In this document: in pieces, positions 2,653-33,600 of the stretch
Layout: every line of letters begins with the position of its first letter
How positions within the stretch are numbered: the stretch's first letter is position 1
IMG/VR virus record: IMGVR_UViG_3300024999_000029
Location: 285,051-349,050 of that record
DNA length: 64,000 nt
Reading direction: 5' to 3' (one strand)
Source: a virus
The notes under the pieces: model-generated
Told to the model about the DNA's origin: nothing
Seen by the model: only the letters and a program-made list of their open reading frames with translations
The model's database searches: none
Program-made: the position numbers and the translations under genes

Positions 2653-5388
2653 ATGCCTTATATTGGTACAAAATATGGAAGTGGAAGTAGTGGTAGTTCT
2701 TCTTCAAATACTTCAACAACTTATATATCTTCAGGTACAAAAATAGCTCCAACAATTACATATAACAATGGTTTAGGAACAGTTACTATAGGTGATGGAA
2801 CATATAGACTTTTTCATACTACAAATTATACAGGAGTTATATCTGAACATGTTATATCTGGTGCAACTTTCCCTATAACAGAACATATCACAACTTATAT
2901 TTGTTCTGATTATAATAGTGGAACTCCTATAATTCGTACGATTACAGATTCATCTCAATTTAATTGGTCTAATATATGTCCTATTTATACAGTAACCAGA
3001 GATGGAGATAACTTATCTTGGGTCGATTGGGACTCGCCCAGCAATGGTTTACCTAACAAGATTCATGATCGTTTAATACGTACTGATAGATTTTCAAGAG
3101 AATCTGGATTAAGCATTGGAGAATCTAGTGTTCCAATAGCACATACTATAATTGTATCGGCAGGTACAATTTGGCAAGGTGTTTATAAAAACTCAATGGA
3201 TTCAGTTGATTCATCTATTGATATAGTTAAAATGCTATATACTGATGGTACTGGAAATTGGATTGATAGTTTTATAACTCAATATAATAACACACAATAT
3301 GATACAGGATTGGGATTAGCTACTCTTACAGATGGTAATTATGCAGTAAATTGGATATTTAGAATGATAGGTAATACTAAAGAAATTACTGTATTTTTGG
3401 GTGATGGGGATTTTGATTTAAATACAGCAAAAGCGTCTCAATTGCCTAATAATATTCCTGCATCAATGTCTACTAATGGTATGCTTATAGGTCGTATTAT
3501 TGTTCTAAAAGGTGCGGATACAGCAACTCAAATAGATAGTGCATTTGTAACAAAGTTCGCTGCTAGTACTGTAACAAGTCATAGTGGATTGACAGAAATT
3601 GAAGGTGGAGATGCACTTGTAGGACACTATTATCATTCAGATCAAGAAATTAATACTGATGATGATGTTGAATTTGCTTCAGTAACAACAAATGATTATA
3701 GAAGTTTGGCTGATGATTTACATTTAAACGCAGATGTTGGCTATGATATTATGGTTCATGACAATATTATTCCTTCTTTAAACAATTCTAAAACATTGGG
3801 TGAATCAGGCTTAGTGTATGCTGAAACATTTACACGAAAAGTAACTTCTGATGATGATTTATCATTAGATGCTTTAACTGGTAAAAATATTGTAATTAAG
3901 AAAAGTGTTTTACCAGATTTGACAAATACTCACAGTATAGGTTCTTCCACAAAAGTTATTAAAGAAGTTTTTACAGAGAAGGTTACTTCTGATGTTGATT
4001 TAATATTAGGTTCAGCTATTGGTTCTGATATTATTTTAAGAAATGGCAATGTGGATGCTGGAATAATTACAGAAACAGGCAATTGGGGAATTGGCAATAT
4101 TAATCCTACTAAAAAACTTGAAATAACTGGTGATGTATTAATTGATGGTGACTTGAGTGTTGATGGAACGGTTACACAGGTAGACGTTGTTAATCTTGAC
4201 GTTACAAATAAAAATATAAACTTAGCTGTAACAGATACTCCTACAGATGCACTAGCAAATGGTGGAGGTATTGTTTTAAAAGGAACAACCGATAAAACTA
4301 TATTATGGGATAATTCTAATGTTGAATGGGATATTTCTGATGGATTAGATGTTGATGGCATAGTTAAAGCAAATGGAACTACTAGTGATGGTAGTACTAA
4401 TATATTTATTGGTAAAGATTCTCTTGGCGCTGATGTATTTAAAGTAGATACTGATGGTAAAGTTACTGCTTCGGTCATTTCACCATCAATAGATAGTACA
4501 ACAGGTGTACAAATAACCAAAGCTGATAAAATAACGCCAATCATTAATGTTGATACTACTAATGAAAGAGTAGAGATCAAAGGTGCTTCTGCTTATGGTA
4601 TAACACAGTTTATTGGGAATGGATTAGACGCAGAATCTTCAATTGGCTTTAAGGATTCTACTGATATAAATGATGAAGCTTGGGTTATTGGTAAGAATGT
4701 AGGTTTGAGTAATACAACAGGCAGATTTGGTATATTTTATTTAAATGGTGAAAAATTAGTTATTACAACTGATGGGAATATTGGAGTGGGAATTGGAGAG
4801 CCTGATGACAGTGCAATTTTAGATTTAACGAGTACAAGTAAAGGATTTCTTTGTCCTAGAGTAACCAAAGCTCAACGACTGTTAATAACTCCGGTTGAAG
4901 GATTAGAAGTATTTGATACTACCGATAGTGGAAAATATTGTTATTCCTCAGGCAGATGGATACAAATAAGTGGTTTAGCTCAACTTACGGTTTATAAAAC
5001 TGTAGATGCTTTCATTCCAGATAATACCGATATCCCATTCGTAACTGAAATTAACTACAATATGGGAACAGTTACGTCCCCTTCAATTCCACTTAAAGCA
5101 AATAAGACCTACCGTGTCCATGCATACGTGCAAATAGATGGGGATGGTGCCGCCGCTGGTGCAAGGTTTGCATTTGTAAACTCTTCCGATAACAGTGCTA
5201 TCAGTGGTTTAAAACAAGGGTTAGTTTACACAACTACAACTACTGGACATGCTAGTTCACAACCAGTAGTAGGAGGATTGTATAGACCTACGAGTGATAT
5301 ATCAATAAAGCTAAGAGTTATATCAAGTTCTGGTACACCTAAGTTAAAGTACGATACATTCCGAATTGAGATCCAGCAAATAGACTAA
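2653..5388 (+). CDS. large tail-fibre-like structural protein
   Basis: A 911-residue protein with a Ser/Gly-rich N-terminus (residues 5-25) and long beta-rich stretches. Internal repeats include ETFTRKVTSDDDL and EVFTEKVTSDVDL (about 390-450). A segment GGIVLKG near 540 and a C-terminal GFLCPRVTKAQR (about 730) are typical of trimeric phage fibres and appendages. It follows an AAGGAG site. It lies upstream of the tail-assembly genes rather than downstream, which is unusual for a receptor fibre, so a neck or capsid fibre is also possible. Confidence 0.65.
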   Translation: MPYIGTKYGSGSSGSSSSNTSTTYISSGTKIAPTITYNNGLGTVTIGDGTYRLFHTTNYTGVISEHVISGATFPITEHITTYICSDYNSGTPIIRTITDSSQFNWSNICPIYTVTRDGDNLSWVDWDSPSNGLPNKIHDRLIRTDRFSRESGLSIGESSVPIAHTIIVSAGTIWQGVYKNSMDSVDSSIDIVKMLYTDGTGNWIDSFITQYNNTQYDTGLGLATLTDGNYAVNWIFRMIGNTKEITVFLGDGDFDLNTAKASQLPNNIPASMSTNGMLIGRIIVLKGADTATQIDSAFVTKFAASTVTSHSGLTEIEGGDALVGHYYHSDQEINTDDDVEFASVTTNDYRSLADDLHLNADVGYDIMVHDNIIPSLNNSKTLGESGLVYAETFTRKVTSDDDLSLDALTGKNIVIKKSVLPDLTNTHSIGSSTKVIKEVFTEKVTSDVDLILGSAIGSDIILRNGNVDAGIITETGNWGIGNINPTKKLEITGDVLIDGDLSVDGTVTQVDVVNLDVTNKNINLAVTDTPTDALANGGGIVLKGTTDKTILWDNSNVEWDISDGLDVDGIVKANGTTSDGSTNIFIGKDSLGADVFKVDTDGKVTASVISPSIDSTTGVQITKADKITPIINVDTTNERVEIKGASAYGITQFIGNGLDAESSIGFKDSTDINDEAWVIGKNVGLSNTTGRFGIFYLNGEKLVITTDGNIGVGIGEPDDSAILDLTSTSKGFLCPRVTKAQRLLITPVEGLEVFDTTDSGKYCYSSGRWIQISGLAQLTVYKTVDAFIPDNTDIPFVTEINYNMGTVTSPSIPLKANKTYRVHAYVQIDGDGAAAGARFAFVNSSDNSAISGLKQGLVYTTTTTGHASSQPVVGGLYRPTSDISIKLRVISSSGTPKLKYDTFRIEIQQID

Positions 5389-14335: not shown

Positions 14336-15124
14336 TTGGCTATACAGGCTTTAAATTTTATATATGACAATATTTCAAGCGAGGTATTTTCGGTCAAGAT
14401 TGTGAATTTTAACTCCAGTGGTTTACAAGAAAATAATTTTGGAGGTAACGTAATTCCGATTTATGAATCAATAAAAAGAAAACATAATGTGTTTTTGTAT
14501 GGGACTCAGCCGTCACAACCATTAGAATTTGAATTGAATATTGCAACAGAGGGAGAAGAACTTGACAGTTATTCACTAGGAGCATTGGGCAAGTGGCTCT
14601 TTGGTCATCAAGATTGGAAATGGCTACAAATTGAGCAAGTTTCATATGAAGGGTTATGGTTTAAGTGTTTATTATTAGATCCTCAAGTTATTTCAGTTGG
14701 TAATATGAATATAGGCTTTAAATGTAAGGTATTCTGTGACAGTTCATATGTATATTCTGATGAGTTTACATATAACCACAATATCACTACTTCTAATCAG
14801 CAAATTACATTTAATAATTTAAGTGATGCTAACTTGTATTTATATCCCTATATATCCTTCACAACGTCTAGTACAACTACTAGCTTCAGTATAAAAAATT
14901 CCTCAGATAGTGATAGAGAATTTAAATTTACAAGTATTGCAAATAATGAGACTATAACTGTGAATAATGATTTAAAAATTATAACGTCTAGTACATCTAA
15001 TAATAGATTGAGTAATTTTAATTTAAAGTGGTTGAGGTTAGTTCCAGGAACTAATAATTTAGTAGTTAATGGGAATGGTAGTATGTTTTTAAGAATGAGA
15101 TTCCCAGTTAAGGTTGGTGGGTAA
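14336..15124 (+). CDS. distal tail protein (Dit, Sipho_tail family)
   Basis: A 262-residue protein starting at TTG 14336 behind AAGGTGGTG. The N-terminal half has the typical Dit features: an early FNFxYD-like start, SSGLQENNFGG, and a WKWLQIE ... YEGLWFKC stretch. The C-terminal half is Ser/Thr/Asn-rich beta. It directly follows the tape measure, the invariant location of Dit. It would form the hexameric hub joining tail tube to Tal. The Tal gene follows only after about 5 kb of inserted accessory genes. Confidence 0.8.
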   Translation: MAIQALNFIYDNISSEVFSVKIVNFNSSGLQENNFGGNVIPIYESIKRKHNVFLYGTQPSQPLEFELNIATEGEELDSYSLGALGKWLFGHQDWKWLQIEQVSYEGLWFKCLLLDPQVISVGNMNIGFKCKVFCDSSYVYSDEFTYNHNITTSNQQITFNNLSDANLYLYPYISFTTSSTTTSFSIKNSSDSDREFKFTSIANNETITVNNDLKIITSSTSNNRLSNFNLKWLRLVPGTNNLVVNGNGSMFLRMRFPVKVGG

Positions 15125-19104: not shown

Positions 19105-19434
19105 ATGGAGTTAAAAGAAAATATTTTAGGTCAATTACATATATATTACGAATCAGTAAGTAGTGACTGTAAACCTATGGCTTTTTTCCCTATTCAAGAA
19201 CGATATGTTGAAGAAATAAAAAACTATGTTTTCTCTCGGAAATTAAACATCCATATTGAACCTTTATCAGATGGTTGGTTTACTATTTATATATATAAAT
19301 ATGATTATTTAATTCATATTATAGAAAATTTGCCCCAAAAACCACAAACTCCCTATGACCATTGGGTTATAGGAAAAGCCTGTGGCTATTCAGATTCAGC
19401 TATTGGTGAGTTTATCAAGTCAAAATTTAAGTAA
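19105..19434 (+). CDS. hypothetical protein
   Basis: A 109-residue protein behind AGAAAGG, preceded by the AAAATATAA motif. Aromatic-rich with a central beta/alpha pattern and a C-terminal helix after DHWVIGKACGYSDSAIGEFI. Not recognised. It lies between the antirepressor operon and the RNA-antitoxin locus, with no terminator after it, so it could be read with either. Confidence 0.55.
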   Translation: MELKENILGQLHIYYESVSSDCKPMAFFPIQERYVEEIKNYVFSRKLNIHIEPLSDGWFTIYIYKYDYLIHIIENLPQKPQTPYDHWVIGKACGYSDSAIGEFIKSKFK

Positions 19435-19471: not shown

Positions 19472-19499
19472 TTGACATATAACCATGCTATGGTATAAT
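19472..19499 (+). promoter_or_regulatory. strong promoter of RNA-repeat/PBECR4 locus
   Basis: TTGACA (19472-19477), 16 bases, perfect TATAAT (19494-19499). The stretch ATGCTATGGTATAATTAAAT (19485-19504), continuing TTAAGG, is shared with the CptIN-like promoter at 24976. Confidence 0.85.
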
Positions 19500-19545
19500 T
19501 AAATTAAGGTAGAATAAAATATCTTATGTAGTTTATATAATATCT

Positions 19546-19611
19546 GTCGGGATGGAGACGAAAAACTCATTCTCATTGGTCGGGATGAAGACCTAAAACT
19601 CATTCCCATTG
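19546..19611 (+). ncRNA. tandem-repeat RNA, probable type III-like antitoxin
   Basis: Two head-to-tail 33-nt units (19546-19578 and 19579-19611) match at 29 of 33 positions. A degenerate third unit may follow (to about 19644). Each unit can pair its GGGATG with the CATTC(C/T)C near its 3' end, and the one difference there is a G-C to G-U exchange, so the stem is kept. The repeats lie 47 bases after a consensus promoter and just before an intrinsic terminator and a toxin-like gene. This is the arrangement of ToxI-type RNA antitoxins. Confidence 0.65.
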
Positions 19612-19635
19612 CAGAGTGAACTGCTAAAAATCAGT

Positions 19636-19660
19636 AAAAGATGGCTTAGGTCATCTTTTT
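19636..19660 (+). terminator. terminator between repeat RNA and toxin gene
   Basis: AAAAGATG pairs with CATCTTTT with loop GCTTAGGT. It sits between the repeats and the toxin ribosome site AGGAG, where type III loci use a leaky terminator to set RNA:protein ratio. Confidence 0.8.
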
Positions 19661-19680
19661 ACTTTTAATAGGAGATACAT

Positions 19681-20397
19681 ATGACAGAAGAAAAAAGTTT
19701 TAAAAAACGTGTAAAAGATGAAATTATAAATGGTGCAAAGATTTATAAGGAAAATTTTGTGGATTATGAATATCTTATATGTTCAGAAGCTTTTACTGCT
19801 AAAGAATTTTATACTATTGACGCAAAAGAAGATAATTATCAACATTTAACTGGAGTTAATTCCTTAATTGCATCAAAAGATTTTTTTAACAAGTCATATG
19901 ATAAAACTCTTCAAGAATCTGATTTTGATTTTAATAAGCGTGGGCAAAGTGAAAAATCAGTAAAAGGTTCTGTAAGAAGAAAAATTAGTGTTTTGCCTAA
20001 TATTATACATATTTTTGAGAATGGTACATTAGTAGAAGAAAATCTTATAAAAAATCAAATTAAATGTTCTTTTGCAACCACCGATAAGAAATGTACATTA
20101 GGCTTTATTGACTTGACAAAATCAAGACCTATGTCTTTACTTAAAGGTGACGAGATTGACAATACAAAAGCTAAAAACATTGACTTGCTTTTAAGGAAGC
20201 ATATATCCAAAGATAAATTTAATGAAATTATAATTGGTGATTTTGTCGCATTGCAAAAATATAGAGAAAACATAGAAGCGTTTTTAGATGAAAAAATTAT
20301 AACGGAACTAGATAAAATGAAAGTACTCTTAGTCAAACAGGAATTACAAGAAGCTCAAGAGCAAGTTGCTTCGGGCGAATATGTAAGACCTCTCTGA
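19681..20397 (+). CDS. PBECR4-like putative RNase toxin
   Basis: A 238-residue protein behind TAGGAGATACAT. The core (about 25-165) reads YEYLICSEAFTAKEFYTI, then YQHLTGVNSLIASKDFF, DFDFNKR, KGSVRRKI, CSFATTDKKCTLGFID and SRPMSLLKG. This order of motifs fits the PBECR4 group of Barnase/EndoU/ColicinE5/RelE-like nucleases described in phage and mobile-element proteins; candidate active residues are the His in QHLTG and the RRK cluster. A coiled C-terminal tail follows. The repeat RNA, promoter and terminator upstream suggest a toxin held by RNA. That activity is inferred. Confidence 0.6.
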   Translation: MTEEKSFKKRVKDEIINGAKIYKENFVDYEYLICSEAFTAKEFYTIDAKEDNYQHLTGVNSLIASKDFFNKSYDKTLQESDFDFNKRGQSEKSVKGSVRRKISVLPNIIHIFENGTLVEENLIKNQIKCSFATTDKKCTLGFIDLTKSRPMSLLKGDEIDNTKAKNIDLLLRKHISKDKFNEIIIGDFVALQKYRENIEAFLDEKIITELDKMKVLLVKQELQEAQEQVASGEYVRPL

Positions 20398-20454
20398 GTG
20401 GAGTTAAAAATTTGTCAAATTTAAGTAAATTAAAAATATAAATAAATCAGCATG

Positions 20455-20482
20455 AAGAGAGGAAAACACCTCTCTTTTATTA
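20455..20482 (+). terminator. intrinsic terminator
   Basis: AAGAGAGG pairs with CCTCTCTT, loop AAAACA, then TTAT. It separates the cargo from the Tal gene. Confidence 0.75.
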
Positions 20483-20502: not shown

Positions 20503-23385
20503 ATGAATTTTACATATGATCTTTTTAATCGCATTGAAGCAATCCAAATAATTCTCTGTAAAAATAACTTAGAAAAAGTTGGTGTCTTAGGTTTAGCATA
20601 CGATAAAAAAGCAATATTGAGGCTTACGGACTTCTCGGAAATTTCTTTTACATATCCTCAAAAAGTTGATAATAAAACAACTCAATATTATAATGATATT
20701 AAAACTAAAAAAATAATTTATGTTCCAGAGTTAGGTTATTTTAGACTTGAAAAAGTAAAGATTGAATCGGATGGCATCAGGGAGGTAAAAAATTGTGTTG
20801 GTTATTCTATTCAGATAGAATTAAAAAATAAACAATTAGTTAATTTCTCAGGTACGTATAAACTATATGACAGTTTAAAACCCCAAGAAAGTTTGATGGG
20901 TATTCTTATAGATTATTTTCCAAATTGGAGTATTAATGAGGTTGATGAGAATCTTTGGAACATCTATCGTACATATGACATTTCAGAGAAGGATATCTAT
21001 TCATTTTTAATGGATGATTTAATGACCTCATTTAATTGCGTGGTACTATTTGATATTATGAATCGTAAAATAAGTGTCAAAGAATTAGGAAATGTATCTA
21101 AAGAAACTGATATATATATTAGTTTTGATAATCTTATTAAGTCAGCAGAAATTGAAGAATTGTCGGATGAAATTTGCAGTTCACTGAGGGTGAGGGGTGG
21201 ATCGGAAAGTACTGACATCAGGAGTGTAAACCCGAATGGAACTGACACTATTTATAATATAAACTATTATAAAACACTTGAGTATATGAGCCAGAGTCTA
21301 ATAGATGCTTTAAATGCATATGAAATAAAATATAATAGTAATAAGACTACATATTCAACAAAATTAACACAAATTAAAGATAAGAATACTATTTTAATAA
21401 CCAAAAATGGAGAATTAGATACACTCAATACTCAGATGGATGTGCTTGTAGCAACAAAAATGGTTAAAATACAAGGCGGTTTATCATTAACTGAAATAAA
21501 TTCTCAAATATCTTCAAAACAATCTGAGATAAATACAAAAAATAATGAGATAACGGGAATAAAAAATGAGATTGCGGTATTGCAAAGCAATCTAAATGAT
21601 ATAGTAGTTCAATTAAAATTCAGTAATAATTTTACAGTAGATCAATTAAAAGAGTTGGACAATTTTTTAATTGAATCCACATATACCGACTCAACATTTA
21701 TAGTTGTAGACAGTATGACGGAAGTGCAGAAGCAAGAGAAAATGCAAGAATTATATGATTATGCTAGTACTATATTAACACGACTGTCTCAACCAAGATT
21801 TTCTTTTAGTATTTCTAGTGCAAACTTTGTTTTTCTAAAAGAGTATGAAAGTTTTATGAAACAATTAGAATTAGGGTGTTTAATTAAAACTGAATTAAGA
21901 GAAGATTATATAGTAACACCAATTTTACTTGAAATTGAGATTGATTTTGAACAGGATGATAATTTTAATCTTCGTTTCGGGAATAGATATAAGCTGAGTG
22001 ACAACACGTTTACTCTAGCCGATATAATGAGTCAAACTACACAAAGTTCAAGCACTATAAGTTTTGAAAAGTATACTTATAAAGATTGGTATAAAAACAG
22101 TAAAGATTCGGTTAGTACGTTCATCGAAAGTGCCTTAAATGCTTCCGTAAACAATATCAAATCCTCCGATAACCAGGATATCTTAATAGATCAGCATGGC
22201 ATGCGCTGTAGACAATTCGATACAAGTACTAATGCATTTAAACCTGAACAACTTTGGATAGTCAATAACATGATCTCGATGTCTAATGATGGATTTTCTA
22301 ACACAGGTAAGATTGCAATCGGTAAAATTATAGATGATCGTTACGGAGAAATTTGGGGTATAGCCGCACCTCTATTAGCAGGAAAAATTCTTACGGGCAA
22401 CAACCTTCGCATAGAGAATTCAAAAAATAGTTTTGTACTGGATGAAAATGGTTGTGTGCTTACAGATGCAAAATTCACTCTCCAAACATCTAATGGAAAA
22501 GGCAAAATTATTTTAGACCCCACATTAGGTATAAGAATACAAGGAAATACAGGGGGTACTTTTGTAGATAAATTTTATGTAGACTCTTTGGGGAATGTGA
22601 AATTTTCAGGAGAATTGTCAGCTGCTACTGGAACTTTCAGTGGAACTGTTCAAGCAGGTAGTATTATATCAAGTACTATCACTGGAGGAACAATCTCTAT
22701 CGGTTCTAATTTTAGTGTTAATTCTAGTGGAATAATTACAGCTACAGGAGCTAATATTTCTGGTAATATAACTGCGAATGCTTTAACTGCAAATGCCACT
22801 ATACAATCTCCAATTGTTACTGGTGGAACAATAAAAACTTCAAGCAGTGGACAAAGAATTGAATTAAGTTCCAACAAACTACAAGCATTTGATTCAAATG
22901 GCATATCAAGAATAAAATTTGAGCCAGTAACTACTTCTGAAGTAAATTATTATGAATTACAATTTCAAGGACAAAGTGGTAGTCAACAAGGAAGTATATC
23001 TGGAACAGATAATCAACTTAATATTGTTGGTCATAATGCACTTGTCTTAAATGGTGGTAATGATAAGGTGTATTTTACTTCAGATGTCGATTTTCAAGGT
23101 AATATTGCTTATATTAATACGATTGAACCAGATGTTGCATTAGCTATTAATGGAATATTAGGACATACTGGTTCTAGAATAGGATTTTTTGGAGTAGATC
23201 CAGCTATACAACAAACAGCTTCATTATTAGGCGATAAATTTACAACTGAAACAGCAGACCTTACTTACGGCAGTATTGAGGTTTCCATGTTGACTCATTT
23301 AAAATCTGACGTAGGAAATTTGTATAATAAAGTTAATGGTATATTGACTAAATTGGCAGAATATGGATTATTTGAATTAGAATAA
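20503..23385 (+). CDS. tail-tip protein Tal (prophage endopeptidase tail family)
   Basis: A 960-residue protein behind AAGAGGTG. Residues 1-500 match the hub region of siphophage Tal/gp27-like proteins: an early LRLTDFSEISFTYP, IIYVPELGYFRLEKV, ICSSLRVRGG and a coiled coil at about 275-370. Residues 560-900 form a beta-rich fibre extension with repeated Ser/Thr/Gly stretches. Normally Tal follows Dit directly; here 5.4 kb of cargo separates them. The last 170 residues share long near-identical segments with the secreted protein at 23518. Peptidase activity is not evident from motifs. Confidence 0.8.
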   Translation: MNFTYDLFNRIEAIQIILCKNNLEKVGVLGLAYDKKAILRLTDFSEISFTYPQKVDNKTTQYYNDIKTKKIIYVPELGYFRLEKVKIESDGIREVKNCVGYSIQIELKNKQLVNFSGTYKLYDSLKPQESLMGILIDYFPNWSINEVDENLWNIYRTYDISEKDIYSFLMDDLMTSFNCVVLFDIMNRKISVKELGNVSKETDIYISFDNLIKSAEIEELSDEICSSLRVRGGSESTDIRSVNPNGTDTIYNINYYKTLEYMSQSLIDALNAYEIKYNSNKTTYSTKLTQIKDKNTILITKNGELDTLNTQMDVLVATKMVKIQGGLSLTEINSQISSKQSEINTKNNEITGIKNEIAVLQSNLNDIVVQLKFSNNFTVDQLKELDNFLIESTYTDSTFIVVDSMTEVQKQEKMQELYDYASTILTRLSQPRFSFSISSANFVFLKEYESFMKQLELGCLIKTELREDYIVTPILLEIEIDFEQDDNFNLRFGNRYKLSDNTFTLADIMSQTTQSSSTISFEKYTYKDWYKNSKDSVSTFIESALNASVNNIKSSDNQDILIDQHGMRCRQFDTSTNAFKPEQLWIVNNMISMSNDGFSNTGKIAIGKIIDDRYGEIWGIAAPLLAGKILTGNNLRIENSKNSFVLDENGCVLTDAKFTLQTSNGKGKIILDPTLGIRIQGNTGGTFVDKFYVDSLGNVKFSGELSAATGTFSGTVQAGSIISSTITGGTISIGSNFSVNSSGIITATGANISGNITANALTANATIQSPIVTGGTIKTSSSGQRIELSSNKLQAFDSNGISRIKFEPVTTSEVNYYELQFQGQSGSQQGSISGTDNQLNIVGHNALVLNGGNDKVYFTSDVDFQGNIAYINTIEPDVALAINGILGHTGSRIGFFGVDPAIQQTASLLGDKFTTETADLTYGSIEVSMLTHLKSDVGNLYNKVNGILTKLAEYGLFELE
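22873..23103 (+). repeat. Tal 3' segment duplicated in the secreted protein gene
   Basis: This stretch, coding for NKLQAFDSNGISRIKFEPVT to NDKVYFTSDVDFQG, recurs at 23619-23849 in the same order. It is nearly identical at both ends and diverged in the middle. The pair is 746 bases apart in direct orientation. Confidence 0.9.
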
Positions 23386-24944: not shown

Positions 24945-24962
24945 TATTTTTGTCGTTAAGAC

Positions 24963-24990
24963 TTGACATGGTATTATGCTATGGTATAAT
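24963..24990 (+). promoter_or_regulatory. consensus promoter of the CptIN-like locus
   Basis: TTGACA (24963-24968), 16 bases, TATAAT (24985-24990). The -10 region and the following bases match those of the 19472 promoter. Confidence 0.9.
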
Positions 24991-25057
24991 TAAATTAAGG
25001 ACAGAATAAAATAACTTGTAATAGGAAACCCCTTGCCTGATAGTAGGGATCTGAACA

Positions 25058-25178
25058 AACACGCTTCACAATGTGCGGCAAAGAAACATTGTTAATACAA
25101 AAGTGCTTCACAATGTGCATTAAATTACATTGTTGATACAAACACGCTTCACAATGTGCGGCAAAGAAACATTGTAAG
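25058..25178 (+). ncRNA. CptI-like repeat RNA antitoxin
   Basis: Three tandem units with a 41-42-nt period (GCTTCACAATGTGC begins at 25063, 25105 and 25146). Each unit contains the stem ACAATG/CATTGT. The middle unit differs in the loop (ATTAAATTA instead of CGGCAAAGAAA) but keeps the stem. The array follows a consensus promoter and is closed by a terminator before the toxin gene, as in type III toxin-antitoxin loci, where the toxin cuts the transcript into single antitoxin units. Confidence 0.8.
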
Positions 25179-33431: not shown

Positions 33432-33600
33432 GCAACCTAACTGCTTAATATGGTATGTACCCTAACCGTTTAGGGGAGTTTAAGTCCTTGGAATCGCACG
33501 TCAAACTGGAGTAGCTTCGGCAAAACAGGCGATAATGAATTGGAAAGTATGAAAGTTAGGGAAATTATAGGTTTTATTAAAGATTTACAACTTTTTATAA
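33432..33600 (+). ncRNA. putative omega-RNA / 3' end of IStron
   Basis: A gene-free stretch directly after tnpB with several short stems, including CCCTAACCGTTTAGGGG and GGAGTAGCTTCGGC. TnpB guide RNAs come from this location, with the guide taken from sequence beyond the element end. Exact boundary unknown. Confidence 0.5.

Follow-up and report, generated by a model that had tools for sequence, protein, structure and literature searches.

A putative phage-borne toxin-antitoxin family of the type III kind: tandem pseudoknot RNAs upstream of PBECR4 genes

Does a nuclease-like gene that stands behind short tandem RNA repeats in a phage genome form a toxin-antitoxin pair with that RNA? The question is raised by a locus at positions 19,472 to 20,397 of a 64,000-nucleotide stretch of viral DNA (the window; positions 285,051 to 349,050 of IMG/VR record IMGVR_UViG_3300024999_000029), where an initial annotation had proposed a type III-like system with a PBECR4-like toxin. 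Our analysis makes it probable that the locus is a phage-borne RNA-protein toxin-antitoxin module of the type III kind, and that with its BECR-type toxin it represents a family not described before. It is filed as such because its layout equals that of the published systems, whereas homology of its toxin to the published families fails. The layout comprises tandem repeats upstream of the gene, one promoter and a terminator before the toxin (in the window), and repeats that form pseudoknots, as established by covariation in the homologues; the window-type repeats, with four distinct rows, are consistent with this. The arrangement, with a toxin outside ToxN, CptN and TenpN, proved to be conserved across distant PBECR4 homologues.

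The RNA gene and protein of the window

The consensus promoter, two 33-nt repeats, terminator and following gene of the initial annotation were all found at the positions claimed (Table 1), and the promoter at 19472-19499 is the sole perfect match in the region. The repeats lie head to tail with 29/33 identical positions, and their tandem score exceeded that of all 100/100 dinucleotide shuffles; the RNA segment 19517-19668 gave a fold z-score of -4.66. A repeat stem kept by a G-C to G-U change had also been proposed; such an exchange was seen at an S2 pair, but an H-type pseudoknot, not a plain stem, fits the repeats. Its elements are S1 (GGUC/GACC, or GUC/GAC in shorter form), S2 (GGGAUGA/UCAUUCC, or GGGAUGR/YCAUUCYC in degenerate code) and the A-rich crossing strand L3 (UAAAAC), and the first G of the repeat 2 stem is base 19578. 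A resemblance of UAAAAC to Cas13a repeat ends was considered and set aside. Pseudoknots as good as those of the window were obtained in 0/100 shuffles. Only four distinct copies of the window-type repeat are present in the record; 95.5% of their cells were paired, and one S2 pair showed exchanges among G-C, G-U and A-U. The window RNA is composed of the two repeat units, each paired with itself, and, as a third element, a hairpin that differs from the repeats and whose loop is able to form 5 bp with the tail of either repeat. Repeat 2 and this next hairpin (19578-19636) matched the Rfam family GP20-b (RF03003) with 29.4 bits, below the curated cut-off of 36.2.

The 238-aa product of the gene matched Pfam PBECR4 (PF18813) over residues 15-185 with 54.2 bits (cut-off 27), confirming the proposed assignment. 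The only other Pfam match was a weak one to LPD3; Pfam gave no ToxN-type match, and NCBIfam and PADLOC gave no match, in agreement with the claim that the toxin is not ToxN, CptN or TenpN. Pfam and Rfam scans found neither an Abi_2 toxin in the protein nor the abiF RNA motif (RF03085) in the RNA. We read the protein as a nuclease because its Pfam family is described as a BECR-like nuclease and three polar residues, His55, Lys101 and Ser152, are invariant across 20 aligned relatives; these residues would fit a metal-independent RNase. The AlphaFold2 model built from the 20-sequence alignment had a pLDDT of 84, and a fold search of BFVD returned only two good matches, both unnamed viral proteins. 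As a single query, the window protein found no relative at an E value of 1e-3 in phages, plasmids, viral contigs and genomes. Relatives were reached through a weak L. salivarius match, which led to L. salivarius plasmids and from there to phages, plasmids, viral contigs and genomes. As a member of the family the window locus is remote; it is linked to the others by the protein profile match together with the shared architecture.

Elsewhere in the window, a 57-nt segment (24961-25017) just 5' of a Fusobacteriales-1 RNA (25057-25175) is 86% like the PBECR4 promoter region, perhaps reflecting a shared lysogeny promoter.

Table 1. Features of the PBECR4 locus (window coordinates)
Feature	Position	Strand	Basis
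Sigma-70-type promoter, TTGACA-16 nt-TATAAT, extended -10 TG	19472-19499	+	Consensus match 12/12
Predicted small RNA transcript, putative antitoxin (~7 nt past -10 to terminator T-run)	19506-19667	+	Promoter and terminator
Repeat 1, H-type pseudoknot unit GUC[GGGAUGGA]GAC-GAAAAAC-UCAUUCU	19546-19578	+	Repeat and pseudoknot analysis
Repeat 2, H-type pseudoknot unit GGUC[GGGAUGAA]GACC-UAAAAC-UCAUUCC	19579-19611	+	Repeat and pseudoknot analysis; subthreshold GP20-b match
Third hairpin and A-rich tail, GCAG[AGUGAA]CUGC-UAAAAA	19611-19630	+	Sequence; second half of GP20-b alignment
Intrinsic terminator separating RNA from toxin gene	19636-19659	+	Terminator scan
Ribosome-binding site AGGAG, ATG 6 nt further on	19670-19674	+	Sequence
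PBECR4 protein gene, 238 aa, putative BECR-type RNase toxin	19681-20397	+	Open reading frame, Pfam match
Terminator 3' of toxin gene	20454-20477	+	Terminator scan

Tandem pseudoknots upstream of PBECR4 homologues

In the test that the initial annotation had named as able to refute it, the PBECR4 homologues were found to share upstream repeats and a terminator, so that the proposal passed. Among the 64 loci with sufficient upstream sequence, 51 had tandem repeats directly upstream of the gene (50/63 without the window), each scoring above all 100 shuffles. The homologue layout consists of two tandem repeats of ~50-56 nt and a terminator, directly 5' of the gene (e.g. L032, L034, L037, L038, L039, L042, L043, and L046), and the terminators are visible between repeats and gene. 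The 13 loci that failed the repeat test mostly had truncated frames or visibly decayed arrays, or were of the L. salivarius type. To control for bias, genomes were sampled by the Pfam PBECR4 model alone, which found PBECR4 in 53/398 Lactobacillales (polyvalent forms counted), 9/140 Pasteurellaceae, and 4/399 genomes from the phylum. Repeats stood upstream of 31/38 stand-alone PBECR4 genes of this sample that also fitted a hidden Markov model built on the first ten proteins, compared with 0/30 control open reading frames (ORFs), and of 0/4 testable PBECR4 domains embedded in large polyvalent proteins. Many of the Pfam-sampled loci are near-identical and some overlap the first set; the non-redundant arrays number 33, the window's included, and their sequences are widely divergent. 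Rfam scans of the homologues' repeats found no family.

The homologue repeat RNAs are pseudoknots with strong covariation. In most loci a unit opens with a stem; a hairpin whose loop is five bases long comes next, then an A-rich strand and finally a tail, which pairs with the hairpin loop. The hairpin, A-rich strand and loop-pairing tail are the device common to the window and homologue repeats. The S1 and S2 cells of 22 different first-repeat cores were 98.9% paired, and 7/8 pairs varied on both sides. Covariation was 0.642 vs 0.213 in shuffled cores, with 0/500 shuffles reaching the observed value, and pairing fell to ~35% when the partners were shifted by one base. Ahead of the two repeats stands a leader hairpin built in the same way. 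Among 28 loci, pairing was found between loop and tail of repeat 1 (loop1-tail1, 26/28), between the loop of repeat 2 and the tail before repeat 1 (loop2-tail0, 24/28), and between the leader loop and the tail after repeat 2 (loop0-tail2, 25/28), with 0/300 shuffles in each case; the non-nested alternatives loop0-tail0 and loop2-tail2 were not above shuffles in these loci. The hairpin parser picked the wrong leader in L037, L043, L077, L079, and L136, which lowered these counts and did not raise them. The homologue RNA would fold as a single nested object of three hairpin units.

Repeat-bearing homologues occur in Lactobacillales, Listeria, other Bacilli, and Pasteurellaceae, where the carriers are temperate phages, the locus often lying beside lysis or integration genes, and also plasmids. 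A second, divergent PBECR4 clade (L147, L148, L150, and L153-L160; motif LPHLLGLHK) had no tandem repeats; 5' of its genes lies a long single-copy structured RNA with a T-run, of at least two RNA kinds. RNA control seems to be general for stand-alone PBECR4 proteins, with repeats in one clade; for the second clade this is a lead. In Enterococcus phage Efs 1-1-1, the PBECR4 locus (L032) is flanked by three RatA type I antitoxin RNAs (2149-2236, 3226-3311, and 3666-3751), which makes it a cluster of toxin-antitoxin loci.

Toxin-free RNA copies and rival explanations

Several observations weigh against reading the locus as a toxin-antitoxin module. The 33-nt repeats of the window share their architecture, not their sequence, with those of the homologues, and the window protein is just 15-23% identical to its aligned relatives. 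A PDB fold search with the predicted structure returned no significant match, with RelE of T. thermophilus at rank 17 (E 3.8); the nuclease-like character initially claimed for the gene is suggested by the Pfam family and the three invariant residues. The window repeat is present in phages without the toxin, and a purely phage-regulatory RNA is possible. Finally, PBECR4 genes of L. salivarius plasmids have no repeats and follow a 165-aa ORF that ends ~4 nt before PBECR4 (L030:3475-4507) and whose product is possibly a protein partner of PBECR4. This arrangement would suit neutralization by a protein antitoxin (type II), for which the window offers the 109-aa product of 19105-19434, the RNA being incidental. 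However, the 109-aa ORF stops short of the promoter and matched no family, the nearest upstream gene of most homologues is unrelated or on the opposite strand, and at least 100 nt of RNA lies between; we consider a type II system extremely unlikely.

The toxin-free copies are best viewed against the structure of the record. The window is the final 64 kb of a 349-kb record in which many gene pairs recur ~160-180 kb apart, and for each part there are separate contigs, from related samples, that match it at 100% (L018 and L019). The record (1-349050) is probably two related phage genomes brought together by an assembly join rather than one jumbo phage. In the window, the PBECR4 cassette lies between a distal tail gene (14336-15124) and a minor tail gene (20503-23385), beside a KilAC antirepressor; in the other phage of the record the same two tail genes are adjacent. 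The record also carries RAGATH-18, two Pistol ribozymes, and a skipping-rope RNA (window 33485-33546; L005:12381-12454; L013:16061-16131; L011:13037-13156).

Two repeat copies without a toxin were found in the record, one at 90375-90407 (33/33 identical to window repeat 2) and one at 247495-247527 (31/33 identical to window repeat 1), both 3' of a ~60-aa ORF and 5' of packaging genes. The toxin-free arrays (record 90344-90407 = L006:10344-10407; 247360-247560 = L014:7360-7560) contain other, unrelated A-rich pseudoknots and have terminators at their end. Such copies stand 5' of the packaging genes in both related phages, the same loci are found on two further contigs, and three related records have no PBECR4. 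These findings had made it look likely that the 33-nt repeat, as a GP20-b-like phage RNA dispersed 5' of packaging genes, serves some unrelated function and was copied beside PBECR4 by chance. This explanation was dropped once the homologues showed repeats of their own: a chance neighbour is very unlikely because other PBECR4 genes carry tandem pseudoknots of unrelated sequence in exactly the same place, and the copy at PBECR4 is equipped with a perfect promoter and a terminator of its own.

Free-standing RNAs were also found in Streptococcus, where L191 (1070-1190) and L192 (1060-1180) keep a promoter, leader, one repeat, and terminator but are not followed by PBECR4; decayed remnants of this orphan RNA were seen in L187-L190. 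A DNA search of phage records gave no free-standing Enterococcus RNA. Repeat-clade toxin genes without RNA were few and mostly truncated. The RNA is thus kept where the toxin is lost, and rarely the reverse, which is the asymmetry expected of an antitoxin and its toxin.

These orphans also bear on the possibility that the RNA is a cis-acting leader, in which the tandem pseudoknots would respond to a signal or protein by controlling termination ahead of a moron nuclease gene; PBECR4, never bound by this RNA, would then have incoming phage or host RNA as its target. The terminator between RNA and gene, the subthreshold match of the window RNA to GP20-b, which Rfam lists as cis-regulatory, and the finding that RCd22 acts against the toxin and also represses transcription of abiF (PMC12373285) all speak for such a leader. 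On the other hand, gene-less orphans with promoter and terminator (L191 and L192), like the copies 5' of packaging genes, point to an action in trans, and tandem repetition with loop-tail pairing between repeats is typical of protein-binding antitoxins; no alternative antiterminator helix was seen, though no systematic search for one was made. We regard a cis-acting leader as unlikely and retain the toxin-antitoxin module.

For that module, the toxin-free copies are perhaps orphan antitoxins that serve as decoys. A more speculative extension, which we put forward tentatively, is that each of the differing pseudoknots in the orphan arrays silences its own target among the RNA-controlled toxins (PBECR4 or others) that hosts and rival prophages carry, and that GP20-b-like phage RNAs are decoy arrays of this sort, which together with the new PBECR4 family would amount to a two-sided RNA arms race within one phage group.

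Proposed mechanism and relation to known systems

In the proposed mechanism, a single promoter would drive transcription of a short RNA made up of tandem pseudoknots; most transcripts would stop at the terminator, and read-through past it would yield the PBECR4 mRNA. PBECR4, as a BECR-type ribonuclease, would arrest growth, but the pseudoknot RNA would bind it and block the active site, and the excess of RNA over mRNA would keep the toxin silent. Loss of the RNA, either by transcription shut-down at superinfection or with loss of the element, would free the toxin and lead to abortive infection or addiction. Toxicity, RNase activity, direct binding and neutralization of the protein by the RNA, and the biological role are what we infer for the locus. 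If correct, the type III kind gains a family with a different toxin, and stand-alone PBECR4 proteins, now annotated by domain name only, gain a function, those on Enterococcus plasmids included. The RNA yields a sharp structural prediction, in that three units should pair loop to tail in nested order, and with the toxin-free copies the idea of phage RNA decoys becomes testable. No mention of PBECR4, and no description of its pairing with an upstream RNA, was found in the open-access literature, although an earlier description of the pairing elsewhere is possible.

Three type III families with mutually homologous toxins are described in the literature, with AbiF- and AvcD-type additions, and the layout of type III loci and of RCd22-AbiF has been proven to be that of toxin-antitoxin systems (PMC5086642, PMC12373285). 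The PBECR4 loci resemble ToxIN/AbiQ, CptIN, and TenpIN in having one promoter, tandem pseudoknot repeats, a terminator, and the toxin gene, and in being carried by phages and plasmids, but differ in their PBECR4 toxin of the BECR group, which has no Pfam match to ToxN-type toxins. ToxI repeats measure 34-36 nt, and those of CptI and TenpI 45-50 nt in ~2 copies (PMC5086642, PMC12373285), whereas PBECR4 homologues have repeats of 50-56 nt and a leader unit, and the window has repeats of 33 nt. Nested loop-tail pairing of three units is a feature of the PBECR4 homologues for which we found no description in ToxI or CptI. Another related system is the type III-like RCd22-AbiF of a Clostridioides difficile prophage, in which two RNA motifs (33 and 35 nt) are followed by a terminator and the toxin, and the RNA neutralizes in cis and in trans (PMC12373285). 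Both systems are phage-borne, with RNA motifs, a terminator, and then the toxin, but the toxin there is Abi_2/AbiF and here PBECR4, and the window RNA has no match to the abiF motif (RF03085).

Toxin-less repeats resembling a type III antitoxin are also known from phage PhiTE, whose pseudo-ToxI, after expansion, suppresses the host toxin (PMC3475682). The orphan copies reported here, putative decoys, are likewise phage-borne, antitoxin-like, and without a toxin, but they resemble the RNA of a related phage's PBECR4 locus and stand in arrays with different pseudoknots. The window RNA shares with GP20-b, a family of phage origin, two hairpins that are each followed by a UAAAA run, and is possibly related to it; it is not filed as a member, its score lying under the gathering threshold. 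The toxin-free copies of the record (A and B) have no GP20-b match. To our knowledge, GP20-b has no toxin association. Finally, polyvalent proteins contain the same PBECR4 domain (PF18813) above the Pfam cut-off, but there it lies within proteins of 800-2000 aa, whereas the genes described here encode stand-alone PBECR4 proteins.
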